This document shows positions 3,042-46,008 of a stretch of DNA of 64,000 nt, piece after piece. The stretch covers positions 62,001 through 126,000 of the forward strand of contig NZ_JAPVBJ010000001.1 of assembly GCF_026967985.1 (NCBI RefSeq), in the 5' to 3' direction. The first letter of the stretch is position 1; every line of letters begins with the position of its first letter. Source of the DNA: Modestobacter sp. VKM Ac-2984. Lineage in GTDB: Bacteria > Actinomycetota > Actinomycetes > Mycobacteriales > Geodermatophilaceae. Position numbers and translations under genes: made by a program. Below the pieces are notes generated by a model. It did not search any database. It was not told where the DNA came from and was given only the letters and a program-made list of their open reading frames with translations.

Positions 3042-3920
3042 TCAGCTCTGGATGAACTCCAGCAGGTCGGCGTTGATCGTCTCTGCCTGGGTGGTCGGCA
3101 TGCCGTGCGGGAAGCCCGCGTAGGTCTTCAGCGTCCCGTTCGGCAGCAGCTCGACTGCCAGCGGAGCGGAGTCCGCGTAGGTCTTCAGCGTCCCGTTCGG
3201 CAGCAGCTCGACTGCCAGCGGAGCGGAGTCCGCGTAGGGCACGACCTGGTCGTCGTCGCCGTGCATGACCAGCACCGGCACCGTGATCTTCTTCAGGTCG
3301 TCGGTGAAGTCGGTCCGGGAGAAGGCGACGACGCCGTCGTGGTGGGCCTTCGCCCCGCCCGTCATGCCCTGGCGCCACCAGTTCGCGATGATCGCCTCGT
3401 TCGGCTCCACGCCGGGCCGGTTGAACCCGTAGAACGGCCCGGACGGCAGGTCGCGGTAGAAGCTCGACCGGTTGGTGGCCACCTGCTCCTGGATGCCGTC
3501 GAAGACGCTCTGCGGCAGCCCGCCGGGGTTGGCGTCGGTCTGCACCATGATCGGCGTCACCGCGCTGATCAGGACGGCCTTGGCGACCCGGTCCTCGCCG
3601 TGCCGGGCGAGGTGGCGGACGACCTCCCCACCGCCGGTCGAGTGACCGACGTGCACGGCACCGTGCAGGTCCAGGTGGGCGGTGAGCGCCGCCAGGTCGT
3701 CGGCGTAGTGGTCCATGTCGTGCCCGTCGGCGACCTGGGTCGAGCGGCCGTGCCCCCGGCGGTCGTGCGCGATGACGCGGTAGCCGCGCTGCACGAAGAA
3801 CATCAGCTGGGCGTCCCAGTCGTCCGACGACAGCGGCCAGCCGTGGCTGAACACGATCGGCTGCCCGGTCCCCCAGTCCTTGTAGTAGGTCTCGATGCCG
3901 TCGTGGCTCAGGACGGGCAT
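3042..3920 (-). CDS. Alpha/beta hydrolase, non-heme chloroperoxidase-like, with internal 19-residue duplication
   Basis: A 292-residue alpha/beta hydrolase of the cofactor-free haloperoxidase/esterase group. The oxyanion segment is FSHGWP, the nucleophile is Ser94 in GHSTGG, the acid is Asp222 or Asp224 in HGDDDQVVP, and the base is His272 in FPHGM. The ATG at 3920 has GAAGGAGA just upstream; longer frames run into the divergent AraC gene. Family members are about 273 residues. The extra 19 are an exact second copy of residues 229-247 at 248-266, lying between the catalytic acid and histidine. Whether the enzyme still folds is unclear. It is divergent from an AraC-type regulator, which may control it. 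Confidence 0.85.
   Translation of the reverse strand: MPVLSHDGIETYYKDWGTGQPIVFSHGWPLSSDDWDAQLMFFVQRGYRVIAHDRRGHGRSTQVADGHDMDHYADDLAALTAHLDLHGAVHVGHSTGGGEVVRHLARHGEDRVAKAVLISAVTPIMVQTDANPGGLPQSVFDGIQEQVATNRSSFYRDLPSGPFYGFNRPGVEPNEAIIANWWRQGMTGGAKAHHDGVVAFSRTDFTDDLKKITVPVLVMHGDDDQVVPYADSAPLAVELLPNGTLKTYADSAPLAVELLPNGTLKTYAGFPHGMPTTQAETINADLLEFIQS
3118..3231. repeat. Perfect 57-bp tandem duplication inside the hydrolase gene
   Basis: Bases 3118-3174 are repeated without a mismatch at 3175-3231, and the first 7 bases of a further copy follow. Because 57 is a multiple of three, the frame is kept and 19 codons are added. Perfect identity implies a recent slippage or unequal-exchange event, or an assembly error. 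Confidence 0.97.
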
Positions 3921-5179: not shown

Positions 5180-5569
5180 GTGGCCGGGGGGATGCAGCGC
5201 GGGCGGCACGGCGGCTCGCTGGCCGACCGCGCCGCCCGTTCCGGGGTGCCCGCTCCCCCGCCGGAGCCGCCCGCCCCGCCGGAGCCGCCCGCCCCGCCGG
5301 AGCCGCCCGCCCCGCCGGAGGCGCCTGCCCCGCCGGAGGCGCCTGCCCCGCCGGCCGCCGAGGCCCGGCGTCCGGCGGGCAACGGGCACGGCCGGCACTG
5401 CTGGGTGCAGGACCCCCCCGACGCACCCGGCACCTGGCCGGGCCTGCTGGTGGAGTGGCGGCAGCGGGAAGACGCCTGGCACGGCCGGGTCGCCTACACC
5501 GTCGTCGGCGCGCACGGCCCGGTGCTGGTCGAGGCCTGGCTGCCCGCTGAGCAGCTCAGCCGGGGCTGA
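5180..5569 (+). CDS. Proline-rich small protein, predicted LexA-controlled
   Basis: Function unknown; a hypothetical protein of about 129 residues. A short basic head (about residues 1-26) leads to a rigid Pro/Glu/Ala spacer made of five 6-residue repeats (EPPAPP three times, EAPAPP twice). A folded C-terminal part of about 65 residues follows, with CWVQDPP, GLLVEWRQ, AWHGRV and VEAWLPAEQL. The perfect SOS box 20 bases upstream makes it a likely DNA-damage gene. The GTG at 5180 is chosen because it follows the operator; ATG at 5192 in the same frame is an alternative. The start at 5141 overlaps the operator and is unlikely. Confidence 0.65.
   Translation: MAGGMQRGRHGGSLADRAARSGVPAPPPEPPAPPEPPAPPEPPAPPEAPAPPEAPAPPAAEARRPAGNGHGRHCWVQDPPDAPGTWPGLLVEWRQREDAWHGRVAYTVVGAHGPVLVEAWLPAEQLSRG
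5264..5353 (+). repeat. Five 18-bp tandem repeats coding the proline spacer
   Basis: Units begin at 5264, 5282, 5300, 5318 and 5336. The first three are identical; the last two share two or three base changes that turn a Pro codon into Ala. Such arrays expand and contract by slippage, so repeat number probably varies among strains. Confidence 0.9.
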
Positions 5570-28283: not shown

Positions 28284-29147
28284 TCAGATGCGGGACGCAG
28301 CGATGCTGGTGACCAGGATCGCCCGCGCGCCGAGCTCCCACAGCTCGTCCATCACCCGGTTGGTGTCCTCCTTGCGGACCATCGCCCGCACCGCCGACCA
28401 GCCCGGCGTCTGCAGCGGGCTCACCGTCGGCCCCTCCAGCCCCGGGGTGCGGGTGGTGGCCTGGGCCAGCAGGTCGTTGGGGCAGTCGTAGTCGAGCATC
28501 ACGTAGCGCCGGGCCACCAGGACACCCTGCAGCCGCCGGCGCAGCTGGGCGACGGCCGGCACCTCGTCGGCACCGGCCCGGCCGACGAGCACGGCCTCGC
28601 TGGCCAGCACCGGCTCGCCGATGATCCGCAGCCCGGCCGCGCGCAGCGTCGTGCCGGTCTCCACCACGTCGCAGACGGCGTCGGCGACGCCGAGCCGGCA
28701 CGCGGTCTCCACGGCGCCGTCGAGCTTGACCACGGCGGCCTTCATGCCCGTCTCGTCCAGGAAGCGCTGCAGCAGCCCCGGGTAGGCGGTGGCGATCCGC
28801 TTGCCCTCCAGCTTCGCCACCTCGTCGACCGGGGACTCCGCCGGGCTGGCGAAGCGGAACGACGACCGGCCGAAGCCCAGCGGCATCACCTCGGCCGCCA
28901 CGTCGCCACCCTCGGGCGGGGTGGTCTCCAGCAGCATGTCGCGACCGGTGATGCCGACGTCCAGCGTGCCGGCCGCGACGTAGATCGCGATGTCCCGCGG
29001 GCGCAGGTAGAAGAACTCGGTGTCGTTCTCGGGGTCGTAGACCGCCAGCTCACTGGTGGTGCGCCGCTGCCGGTACCCGCTCTCGGCCAGCATCGCGGCC
29101 GCGGGCTCGCTGAGGACACCCTTGTTGGGCACGGCAACGCGCAGCAC
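28284..29147 (-). CDS. hisG: ATP phosphoribosyltransferase, long form
   Basis: A 287-residue first enzyme of histidine synthesis (ATP plus PRPP to phosphoribosyl-ATP). It contains RVAVPNKG at the start, DVGITGRDML, the PRPP site in the catalytic domain (DAVCDVVETGTTLRAAGL), and the C-terminal ACT-like feedback domain (AMVRKEDTNRVMDELWELGA), making it the long HisG that works without HisZ. GTG at 29147 follows AAAGGAG. It is last in the rpe-rib-his operon, separated from hisE by 93 bases that hold the structured repeat. Confidence 0.95.
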   Translation of the reverse strand: MLRVAVPNKGVLSEPAAAMLAESGYRQRRTTSELAVYDPENDTEFFYLRPRDIAIYVAAGTLDVGITGRDMLLETTPPEGGDVAAEVMPLGFGRSSFRFASPAESPVDEVAKLEGKRIATAYPGLLQRFLDETGMKAAVVKLDGAVETACRLGVADAVCDVVETGTTLRAAGLRIIGEPVLASEAVLVGRAGADEVPAVAQLRRRLQGVLVARRYVMLDYDCPNDLLAQATTRTPGLEGPTVSPLQTPGWSAVRAMVRKEDTNRVMDELWELGARAILVTSIAASRI

Positions 29148-29180: not shown

Positions 29181-29238
29181 TCGGCCCCCTTCAGAGGCTC
29201 GCCCCGAGCTTGCGAGGGGTGAGGAGAAGGGGGTCCTT
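29181..29238 (-). repeat. Structured palindromic repeat, copy A (between hisE and hisG)
   Basis: On the minus strand the element starts AAGGACCCCCT, has the loop TCGCAAGCTC, and ends AGGGGGCCGA. It folds into an outer stem CCCCCTTC/GAAGGGGG (29185-29192 with 29226-29233) and an inner 8-bp stem CUCGCCCC/GGGGUGAG-type (29198-29205 with 29216-29223). Copy B (45678-45733) shares the ends and loop but has different paired stem bases. It lies inside the rib-his operon. Confidence 0.75.
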
Positions 29239-29240
29239 GC

Positions 29241-30094
<854 letters not shown>

Positions 30095-42929: not shown

Positions 42930-42973
42930 TCCGACAGTCCCCGGCGACGTGCTGGCACGGCCCTCCTGCAGTG

Positions 42974-43001
42974 CCCCGCTGCGCGTCGGTGCGCAGCGGG
43001 G
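42974..43001 (-). terminator. Terminator hairpin after metK
   Basis: An 11-bp stem (42974-42984 with 42991-43001) and a 6-base loop, 13 bases past the metK stop, ahead of priA. Confidence 0.65.
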
Positions 43002-43014
43002 TGCCCGGAGGTCC

Positions 43015-44235
43015 TTATGCCACCGCCGACTTCAGCGCGTCGACCCGGTCCAGCCGCTCCCAGGGCAACTCGATGTCGGTGCGGCCGAAGTGGCCGTAGG
43101 CCGCCGTCGGCGCGTAGATCGGCCGCAGCAGGTCCAGGTCCCGCACGATCGCGCCGGGCCGCAGGTCGAACACCGCGGTGATCGCCTTCTCCAGCACGTC
43201 CTCGGGGATCGTGTTGGTGCCGAAGGTCTCCACGAAGAGGCCGACCGGGTGGGCGGCACCGATCGCGTAGGCGACCTGGACCTCGCACCGGCGGGCCAGC
43301 CCGGCGGCGACCACGTTCTTCGCCACCCAGCGCATCGCGTAGGCCCCGGACCGGTCGACCTTCGAGGGGTCCTTGCCGGAGAACGCGCCGCCGCCGTGCC
43401 GGGCCATGCCACCGTAGGTGTCGACGATGATCTTGCGGCCGGTCAGCCCGGCGTCGCCCATCGGGCCACCGATGACGAACTTGCCGGTCGGGTTCACCAG
43501 CAGCCGGTAGCCGGTGGTGGGCAGGCCCAGCTCGCGCAGCGCGGGCTCGACCACGAACTCCTGGACGTCCGGGGCGAGCAGCGTGTCGATGGAGATGTCC
43601 TCGGCGTGCTGGGAGGAGACCACCACGGTGTCCACGGCGACCGGCCGGTCGTCCTCGTAGACGACGGTGACCTGGGTCTTGCCGTCGGGGCGCAGGTAGG
43701 GCACCGACCCGTCCTTGCGGACGGCCGACAGCCGCCGGGACAGCCGGTGGGCCAGCGCGATCGGCAGCGGCATCAGCTCGGGGGTCTCGTCCGTCGCGTA
43801 CCCGAACATCAGGCCCTGGTCGCCGGCGCCCTGCCGCGCGATCAGGTCGTCGGCCGCCGCGGCCCGGTGCTCGGCCGCGCTCAGCTCGCCGGTGCGGGTC
43901 TCGTAGCCGACGTCCACGCCCTGGGCGATGTCCGGGGACTGCGCGCCGATGGAGACGCTGACGCCGCAGGAGGCGCCGTCGAAGCCCTTGCGGGAGGAGT
44001 CGTAGCCGATGCGGAGGATCGTCTTGCGCACGATGTCGGCGATGTCGACGTAGCCGGAGGTGGTGACCTCACCGGCGATGTGCACCTGGCCGGTGGTGAT
44101 GAGGGTCTCGACGGCGACGCGGCTGCGCGGGTCCTGGGCGAGCATCGCGTCCAGGATCGAGTCGCTGATCTGGTCCGCGATCTTGTCGGGGTGGCCCTCG
44201 GTCACCGACTCGGACGTGAACAGACGGCGTGGCAC
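43015..44235 (-). CDS. metK: S-adenosylmethionine synthase
   Basis: A 406-residue tetrameric enzyme that makes SAM from methionine and ATP. Motifs: [18 protein letters not shown] (His and Asp of the metal site), [12 protein letters not shown], and [20 protein letters not shown] (P-loop-like). GTG at 44235 follows AGGGAGAA. I found no SAM riboswitch in the short 126-bp upstream gap; it holds a 16-bp palindrome. It is downstream of coaBC on the same strand. Confidence 0.97.
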
Positions 44236-44361: not shown

Positions 44362-45618
44362 TCAGGCCTGCCGGGGCAGCCGGTCGGACACCACGTCCCA
44401 GATCGCGGCGGCGACCGCGTCCTTGCGACCGGGCGGCACGGCGGTCGCCGACCCGTCGGTGGCCAGCACCGTCACCTCGTTCTCGGCCCGGCCGAAGACG
44501 CGGCCGGCGGAGACGTCGTTGACCACCAGCAGGTCGGTGCCCTTGCGGGCCAGCTTGGCGCGGGCGTGGGTCAGCACGTCGCCCTCGGCGTCACCGGTCT
44601 CCGCGGCGAAGCCGACGACGAGCTGCCCGGGCAGCCGGGCGCCCACCAGCTCGACCAGGACGTCGGGGTTGCGGACCAGCTCCACCGAGCTGGGCTCGGC
44701 GGCCCCGCCCTTCTTCAGCTTGCTGCCGGCGACCGTGGCGGGCCGGAAGTCGGCGACCGCGGCGGCCATGACGACGACGTCGGCCGGCCGAGCCGCCCCC
44801 TGCCCGGAGGACCCGGGGTCCCCGGACGACTCGGCGTGCATCGCGGTCCGGAGCTCCTCGGCGCTCTCCACCGGCACCACCCGCACCCCGAACGGGGCCG
44901 GCAGCTCGACGTTGGCGGCGACCAGCACGACCTCGGCGCCCCGGGCCGCGGCGACCCGGGCCAGCGCCCAGCCCTGCAGCCCGGACGAGCGGTTGCCCAG
45001 GAACCGCACCGGGTCCAGCGGCTCCCGGGTGCCGCCGGCGCTGATCACGACCCGGCGGCCGGTGAGGTCGGGGGCGAGCGCGCCGGCACCGGCGGAGAGC
45101 ACCAGCTCGGCCAGCGCCGCGACGTCGGCGGGCTCGGGCAGCCGCCCGGGGCCGGAGTCCGGGCCGGTGAGGCGCCCCACCGCGGGGGGCAGCACGACCG
45201 CGCCGCGGCGGCGCAGCGTCGCGACGTTGTCCTGGGTGGCCGGGTGCAGCCACATCTCGGTGTGCATGGCCGGGACGAAGACGACCGGGCAGTGCGCGGT
45301 GAGCAGCGTGGCGGTGAGCAGGTCGTCGGCCCGCCCGGCCGCCGCCCGGGCCAGCAGGTCCGCGGTGGCCGGGTTGACCAGGACCAGGTCGGCGTGCTGC
45401 CCGATCCGGACGTGGGCGACCTCCGGGACGTCGTCCCAGACCTCGGTGGACACCGGGTTCCCGCTGAGCGCCTCGAACGTCGCGGCGCCGACGAAGCGCA
45501 GCGCCGACGCCGTGGGCACCACCCGGACGTCGTGGCCGGACTCGGTGAGGGCGCGCAGCAACAGGGCGGACTTGTAGGCCGCGACGCCACCACCCACGCC
45601 CAGGACGATCTGGCTCAT
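44362..45618 (-). CDS. coaBC: Phosphopantothenoylcysteine synthase/decarboxylase
   Basis: A 418-residue bifunctional enzyme of coenzyme A synthesis. The N-terminal CoaC part has the FMN site GVGGGVAAYKSALLLRAL and the catalytic His in PAMHTEMW; the C-terminal CoaB part has VISAGGTREPLDPVRFLGN, AAAVADFRP and the SKLKKGG lysine motif. ATG at 45618 is chosen because GGAGG lies 9 bases upstream; ATG at 45627 would place that site too close. A 15-bp hairpin ends 20 bases before it. It lies between rpoZ and metK, as in most actinobacteria. Confidence 0.95.
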   Translation of the reverse strand: MSQIVLGVGGGVAAYKSALLLRALTESGHDVRVVPTASALRFVGAATFEALSGNPVSTEVWDDVPEVAHVRIGQHADLVLVNPATADLLARAAAGRADDLLTATLLTAHCPVVFVPAMHTEMWLHPATQDNVATLRRRGAVVLPPAVGRLTGPDSGPGRLPEPADVAALAELVLSAGAGALAPDLTGRRVVISAGGTREPLDPVRFLGNRSSGLQGWALARVAAARGAEVVLVAANVELPAPFGVRVVPVESAEELRTAMHAESSGDPGSSGQGAARPADVVVMAAAVADFRPATVAGSKLKKGGAAEPSSVELVRNPDVLVELVGARLPGQLVVGFAAETGDAEGDVLTHARAKLARKGTDLLVVNDVSAGRVFGRAENEVTVLATDGSATAVPPGRKDAVAAAIWDVVSDRLPRQA

Positions 45619-45638
45619 GCGGTCCATCCTCCACACAC

Positions 45639-45672
45639 GACGAAGCCCCCGGCACCAGCCGGGGGCTTCGTC
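45639..45672. terminator. Terminator-like hairpin between rpoZ and coaBC
   Basis: A perfect 15-bp stem GACGAAGCCCCCGGC with GCCGGGGGCTTCGTC and loop ACCA. It would end rpoZ transcripts but lies only 20 bases from the coaBC ATG, so coaBC would need a promoter inside or read-through. Copy B of the structured repeat starts 5 bases away. Confidence 0.75.
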
Positions 45673-45677
45673 ATTGA

Positions 45678-45733
45678 AAGGACCCCCTCCCACGAGGCCT
45701 TCGCAAGCTCAGGCCACGACCGGAGGGGGCCGA
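45678..45733 (+). repeat. Structured palindromic repeat, copy B (between rpoZ and coaBC)
   Basis: On the plus strand it starts AAGGACCCCCT, has the loop TCGCAAGCTC at 45701-45710, and ends AGGGGGCCGA. It folds by CCCCCTCC/GGAGGGGG (45683-45690 with 45722-45729) and GGCCT/AGGCC (45696-45700 with 45711-45715). The ends and loop are identical to copy A (29181-29238), while the stems change in matched pairs. It is antisense to the surrounding rpoZ-coaBC direction. Confidence 0.75.
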
Positions 45734-45744
45734 AGAAGAACTAC

Positions 45745-46008
45745 TTAGTTCTCGCCGGCGGTGTGGGCGAGGAGGCCCTCGTTGATCTCGCGGAGCGCGA
45801 TCGACAGCGGCTTCTCCTGGGGCGCGGTGTCGACCAGCGGGCCGACGTACTCCAGCAGGCCCTCGGAGAGCTGGCTGTAGTAGGCGTTGATCTGGCGCGC
45901 ACGCTTGGCGGCGTAGATGACCAACCCGTACTTGCTGGTGGTCCGCTCGAGCAGCTCGTCGATCGGCGGGTTGGTGATGCCCTCAGGGGCAGGTGCGACT
46001 CCGGACAC
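45745..46008 (-). CDS. rpoZ: RNA polymerase omega subunit
   Basis: An 87-residue subunit that helps fold the beta' subunit. Typical features: [31 protein letters not shown] and [15 protein letters not shown] (cut here only in description). GTG at 46008 follows GAGGAG. It lies downstream of gmk and upstream of coaBC, the usual actinobacterial order. Confidence 0.96.

Follow-up and report, generated by a model that had tools for sequence, protein, structure and literature searches.

The systems closest to the repeat reported here are the REP elements. GTAG REPs are abundant extragenic palindromes of 20–40 nt with stem irregularities, associated with the RAYT/TnpA-REP transposase (PMC3733652, PMC8266576), which recognises a REP by the stem irregularities of its folded single strand (PMC8266576). 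They lie close to gene 3′ ends, between tandem and convergent genes, and their GTAG termini often provide the TAG stop codon of the flanking genes, so proximity to stops has precedent (PMC3733652). For CGTC REPs, which have stems of 8–9 bp, loops of 4–5 bases and a CGTC tag, the same source reports no dedicated transposase (PMC3733652). In mycobacteria, the MIRU are small actinobacterial repeats, apparently mobile, that sit at start codons and carry an ORF coupled to the following gene (PMC12548453).

Here we report that a hairpin of Modestobacter sp. VKM Ac-2984 belongs to a large dispersed family of units of about 57 bases spread through the Geodermatophilaceae. To the Actinobacteria it adds a REP-like mobile hairpin that is abundant throughout one family, follows a tight docking rule, in gene sense and mostly at a distance of 1 or 4 nt past a stop codon, and lacks the enzyme by which the best-known REPs are explained. 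What moves transposase-less REPs becomes testable in soil bacteria, where sister species range from 0 to more than 100 copies. Through this family, dozens of genes, including hisE here and rpoZ in relatives, also carry a strong hairpin at their 3′ ends. A search by title and abstract, with subscription journals lying mostly outside it, returned no publication describing this repeat.

Hairpin elements of the window

The window, which is the whole stretch of 64,000 nucleotides analysed, contains two copies (A and B, Table 1) whose coordinates and sequence are exactly those given in the initial annotation. Both carry AAGGACCCCCT, a left spacer of 12 nt, the loop TCGCAAGCTC and the right end AGGGGGCCGA, and their differing stems still pair as it had described; on its own strand, each folds better than 200/200 dinucleotide shuffles (A, z = −2.67; B, z = −3.28). 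The opposite strand of copy A also reaches z = −2.67, yet there 4/200 shuffles fold equally well. Copy A starts 2 nt past the hisE stop codon and has the foot AAGG-A-CC, the outer stem CCCCCTTC/GAAGGGGG, a single A.C mismatch in the inner stem and the end GGCC, while copy B is preceded by TTGA, which is not a gene stop. Both copies had been described as opposite in sense to the genes around them; this holds for copy B, which is antisense to rpoZ and to the coaBC-like gene, but not for copy A, which lies on the minus strand like hisE and hisG. The description as a two-copy repeat was right about A and B and was an undercount, since the genome holds 109 copies and the window a third one. The third copy has a different loop, a 14-bp inner stem and a TGCCAGCACGTC-like extension behind it, and the AA of its foot lies within the TAA stop codon of the gene upstream, which by its sequence is probably metK-like.

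Table 1. Coordinates of the hairpin elements and of neighbouring features in the window.
Feature	Position	Strand	Remarks
Copy A, hairpin element of subtype 1	29181..29238	−	between hisE and hisG
Loop of copy A, TCGCAAGCTC	29206..29215	−	
hisG, ATP phosphoribosyltransferase	28284..29147	−	downstream of copy A; PF01634, PF08029
hisE, phosphoribosyl-ATP pyrophosphohydrolase	29241..29504	−	stop codon precedes copy A; PF01503
Third, diverged family member	42958..43016	−	covariance model E 5.8e-4
Gene with TAA stop overlapped by third copy	43015..44235	−	
coaBC-like gene, Flavoprotein and DFP domains	44362..45627	−	beyond copy B; PF02441, PF04127
Separate hairpin GAAGCCCCCGGC/GCCGGGGGCTTC, outside the family	45642..45673		gap between rpoZ and coaBC-like gene
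Copy B, hairpin element of subtype 3	45678..45733	+	between rpoZ and coaBC-like gene
Loop of copy B, TCGCAAGCTC	45701..45710	+	
rpoZ-like gene, RNA polymerase omega, Rpb6 domain	45745..46008	−	PF01192

The separate hairpin beside copy B is perfect and was kept, with stem changes, in 17/17 same-genus loci read that far, regardless of whether an element is present at rpoZ; it probably serves rpoZ as a terminator or coaBC as a leader hairpin. Rfam 15 at gathering score gave 0 matches in the 64-kb window, and a tRNA scan of the window found none.

Family members are typically 55–60 nt long. Read on the top strand, an element runs from the foot GAAGG-A-CC, whose A is bulged, through an outer arm of about 9 bases (outer stem ~9 bp), a C-rich run and an inner arm of about 8 with a conserved A (inner stem ~8 bp) to the loop TCGC-NN-GCTC; then follow the second inner arm with a C opposite the conserved A, a CCCTG-like joint, the second outer arm and the end GGCC. 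Four rough subtypes were distinguished, the labels being approximate: 1 (CCCCGTCCTCCTCACC), 2 (CCCCCTGCCCCCCACC), 3 (CCCCCTCCCACGAG) and 4 (inner hairpin CGACGCGCTTCGCACGCCG). A GTTCCAGCACGTCAC-like (GTTCCA-type) extension follows only 30/192 parsed copies and was rejected as a constant part of the element. At five loci of relatives (L143, L160, L162, L090 and L226), the right half of another copy stands directly after a GTTCCAGCACGTCAC-type extension, joined near the loop.

Size and distribution of the family

The initial annotation had named further copies in the genome and its relatives as a check, and these are abundant. A degenerate two-part pattern, allowing 3 mismatches at most, gave 51 matches in the own genome, and its reversed control gave 5. 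When 59 genomes were scanned with this pattern, 22 same-genus relatives gave 8 to 152 matches, and other families of the order stayed at control level. A covariance model built from 43 copies (threshold E ≤ 1e-3) recovered the 109 copies of the own genome, and 148, 144, 88, 150 and 66 copies in five relatives, up to 150 candidates being scored in each.

Of the Geodermatophilaceae genomes surveyed, 101/112 had a match; the 11 without one, several of them incomplete, were G059, G085, four of genus g6, one of g10 and four of g8. The distribution is patchy within genera, with 0 copies in G059, 4 in G065 and 2 in G075 against at least 49 in many sisters. In a survey of the order, 20/150 genomes matched, of which 18 were Geodermatophilaceae; the matches outside the family, in G164 (2 matches, best E 3.9e-12) and G173 (1 match, best E 7.4e-11), reflect either transfer or contamination. 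An exact subtype pattern, searched across bacteria and archaea with each species represented by one genome, returned 13 stretches, all of Geodermatophilus, Modestobacter or Blastococcus. Spread by phages or plasmids was rejected as an explanation, with 0 exact matches to one pattern in viral contigs and no match to copy A in plasmids.

Base pairing and strand asymmetry

An RNAalifold consensus on the mixed subtypes was poor (13 pairs) because stem lengths vary between subtypes, so foot and loop were used instead to parse the stems. The first parse gave 68 distinct copies and left out 41/109; the second gave 82 distinct copies, the rest being unparsed or duplicates. Among these 82 copies, with 37 different sequences in the outer left arm, 651/738 cells of the outer stem and 533/656 of the inner stem were Watson-Crick, where the best of 2000 within-column shuffles reached 485 and 445, respectively. 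The observed pairing was likewise above every shuffle within subtype 1 (28 copies) and within the remainder (54). Covariation above chance, the other check that the annotation had named, is thus borne out against 2000/2000 shuffles; the copies are related by descent and the counts not independent, so this excess cannot be read as a probability.

At the rpoZ and hisE sites shared between species, changes on both sides of a pair numbered 33, against 18 one-side changes making or breaking a Watson-Crick pair and 4 others, all counted pairwise with repeats included. Decay at a shared site was also found (own copy at 196992 compared with G001). The annotation had read the stem changes as selection on structure. 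Pairing is indeed often kept at shared sites, yet some copies decay and the copies of the family behave like insertions; selection on structure is a possible reading of the pairing, and arm-by-arm correction could preserve it as well.

The two strands of the element are not equivalent. On the top strand, an A.C mismatch occupies inner position 4 in 60/82 copies and position 1 in 24/82, and on the bottom strand both become G.T or G.U. Elsewhere in the stems of the 82 copies, A.C cells (26) and G.T cells (23) are about even, so the asymmetry is a signature confined to two positions and does not reflect a general pattern of drift. At the foot GG-A-CC, the A is bulged on top, while the bottom strand folds with a G.U pair and without the bulge. 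The bottom-strand loop reads GAG-CNNG-CGA, a form that would permit tandem G.A pairs. By predicted RNA energies, the bottom strand folds better in 103/106 copies (means −37.0 vs −31.3), and by DNA parameters the same strand, which is the one opposite to the gene, is favoured in 88/106.

Position relative to stop codons

Genes were called by our own codon model trained on contig C1. Only 8/109 own-genome copies overlap a called gene. Among the 101 others, 81 have a same-sense gene upstream, the next gene being same-sense in 46 and convergent in 35; the remaining 20 have no sense gene upstream, 13 being antisense to both neighbours and 7 lying between divergent genes. In total, 75/101 begin −2 to +9 nt from a sense stop, a rule which a random intergenic point and orientation meets in 2.9% of cases, and the other 6/81 with a sense upstream gene lie 56–751 nt from its stop. 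With 7 of the 109 junctions unparsed, 72 copies were classed as directly behind a stop. Of these, 65 follow TGA; the GG of the foot stands 4 nt from the stop in 38 copies and 1 nt from it in 14.

Copies away from sense stops follow a similar pattern: 20/30 have a stop-like triplet within 10 nt, where windows further up gave 0, 0, 2 and 3 of 30, and 10/30 have none. Real stops make up 18% (559/3097) of intergenic stop-like triplets, against 69 of the 89 triplet-bearing copies; real stops are therefore favoured beyond the triplet, via targeting or via survival of the insertion. In relatives and in named records of Geodermatophilus, Modestobacter and Blastococcus, 25/28 and 9/11 parsed copies stand behind the stop of a sense ORF (3/42 loci unparsed). 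In a listing of 108 copies, the right flanks start with G or GTCA or are mixed, and no T-run directly behind the hairpin was found.

Copies that are not at stops often follow GTAG or CAGNGTAG-like letters (C1:356246, C1:384097, C20:115233, C16:141721 and C1:354791), just upstream of the start of an antisense gene. These letters are perhaps the complement of a −10 box.

Site history

In the hisE-hisG gap, 15 of 20 same-genus loci have a clear element, of differing subtypes; a partial element is present in G017 and G007 and none in G005, G011 and G003. Element-free species and the five outgroups read have their hisE stop codon at the equivalent position. Behind rpoZ, the 18 same-genus loci comprise 11 with a sense copy right behind the stop, 6 empty ones and the own genome with its inverted copy B.

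For a broader comparison, 430 kb of the own genome was set against 400 kb each of G001 and G013, the flank identity being mostly 93–98% with extremes of 87 and 100%. Orthologous sites were occupied in one genome and empty in the other, at two sites the elements pointed in opposite directions, and newer elements were found inside the foot or arm of older ones; nested elements also occur in the own genome at C20:15683, C20:52707 and C20:164779. Judged by eye, insertions often replace about 10–30 bp. The insertion at G013 294191 has TGA on both sides, while the others, also by eye, lack a clear duplication, and neither a consistent target-site duplication nor a sharp right end was found among the insertions compared. 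From the occupied and empty sites, the opposite orientations and the elements within elements, all seen between species with one genome each, it follows that the family has been mobile.

Search for a mobilizing enzyme

The Y1_Tnp domain (PF01797) was absent from 35/35 family genomes, its 3 matches all lying in other families of the order, and RAYT/IS200 was accordingly rejected as the mover. In 20 chosen genomes, the reverse transcriptase domain PF00078 was present in 9 and gave no match in the copy-rich G060, G061, G064, G076, G080 and G088, while the IS110 domain PF02371 was present in the copy-free G059 and G085 and missing from the copy-rich G001 and G020; neither correlates with copy number and both were rejected as drivers. 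A reverse transcriptase domain lies in an open frame of 484 aa at G000:C3:19064-19714, and the frames with this domain in G020, G007 and G001 have 484, 484 and 476 aa.

Discussion

The comparison with REP-type elements made in the initial annotation is close in kind. The family resembles REPs in the wide sense, having many extragenic palindromic copies near gene 3′ ends (109, of which 75 are at sense stops), but neither the tags that mark the GTAG and CGTC superfamilies nor a RAYT transposase emerged as a feature of it when looked for. With GTAG REPs it shares the abundant extragenic palindromes, the stem irregularities and the 3′-end placement; it differs from them as a two-storey hairpin of 55–60 nt instead of a unit of 20–40 bp, and GTAG stands next to the stem foot in 0/101 parsed copies. 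Its stem irregularities also resemble those that TnpA-REP recognises on a folded single strand (PMC8266576). With CGTC REPs it shares the 3′-end location and the lack of a dedicated transposase among our findings; it differs in that CGTC adjoins the stem in 5/101 copies, the variants TGTC and CCTC, which PMC3733652 also names, not being counted as tags. Opposite dimers of the REP type are not frequent: the 109 copies include 6 pairs lying within 200 bp of each other, and 2 of these pairs are oppositely oriented.

Other described elements resemble the family in part. Like MITEs and similar small mobile repeats, it is short, non-autonomous and intergenic (PMC2229807); it may differ in target duplication, for which the insertion with TGA on both sides is the one candidate among those read by eye. 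Like an intrinsic terminator, it is a G+C-rich hairpin in gene sense behind genes, and it differs in its conserved foot and loop sequence, its insertion history and the missing T-run after GGCC. MIRU, like it, are small repeats of Actinobacteria, seemingly mobile and at gene boundaries; they have start codons and an ORF where the present element is a hairpin behind stops, the two being set apart here by description. MIRU prefer TGA-containing sites and are not known to have dyad symmetry.

We consider it likely that the element is a REP-like, non-autonomous mobile hairpin of the Geodermatophilaceae that docks behind TGA or TAG. A putative trans-acting activity would copy it as a folded single strand; we infer that the strand copied is most likely the one opposite to the gene, on which the gene-sense bulged A and A.C mismatches become G.U or G.T pairs. 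Joining would take place next to a TGA or TAG triplet, 1 or 4 nt past it and in some cases slightly further, with an expected junction of the form TGA-N-GAAGGACC, and would often replace some downstream bases. Stop codons would be the commonest dock because the triplet is present and insertion there spares the gene. Once inserted, the copy would form a strong 3′ hairpin of about −31 kcal/mol in the mRNA of the upstream gene, which may protect the 3′ end or slow the polymerase, and copies would later drift, be replaced or act as docks for newcomers.

Counting against this reading, a function conserved in situ would also account for the pairing preserved at rpoZ and hisE. The element could be a lineage-specific terminator or mRNA 3′-end element, selected where it stands, inherited vertically and kept by compensatory stem mutation, as its strength as a hairpin, its gene-sense position behind stops, the 35/101 copies between convergent genes and the excess of both-side over one-side changes at rpoZ and hisE would suggest. 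We regard this as unlikely, since presence, subtype and orientation vary among close species at one and the same site, rpoZ has another hairpin that is kept with or without the element, a T-run is missing, copy A lies between the co-directional hisE and hisG, and 109 copies stand against thousands of genes (735 were called on C1, which is 17% of the genome). The covariation itself might instead arise from correction of one arm on the other by template switching, in which case pairing would persist without function; between G009 and G012 at rpoZ, one C-G to G-C flip is the sole difference in an otherwise identical element. Under such correction, the bulged A and the A.C mismatch ought to disappear, yet both persist, and dispersal and docking are left unexplained. 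As a full account it is improbable; it may be a partial cause alongside the mobile hairpin.

The strand asymmetry also bears on a further reading, in which the copies are SINE-like retrocopies of a small structured bottom-strand RNA, laid down behind a nick after TGA-N in the manner of target-primed reverse transcription. The bottom strand has G.U where the top has A.C or the bulge and folds better in nearly all copies, the junction at the supposed 3′ end of the RNA is fixed at TGA or TAG while the other end is variable, and the GTTCCA-type extension of some copies and the bases replaced at insertion would fit as well. A single-stranded DNA intermediate would give the same geometry, however; the six copy-rich genomes named above have no PF00078 match, and no source RNA gene was identified. 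We therefore hold retrocopying to be very improbable; if true, it would mean about 100 or more retrocopies per genome without an element-borne enzyme. A mobile hairpin with a single-stranded intermediate remains the reading we prefer.

Other repeats in the window

Two further repeats were seen in the window. Positions 3113-3226 hold two 57-nt units, head-to-tail and 98% identical, and positions 5245-5370 hold 18-nt tandem repeats of the GGAGCCGCCCGCCCCGCC type.
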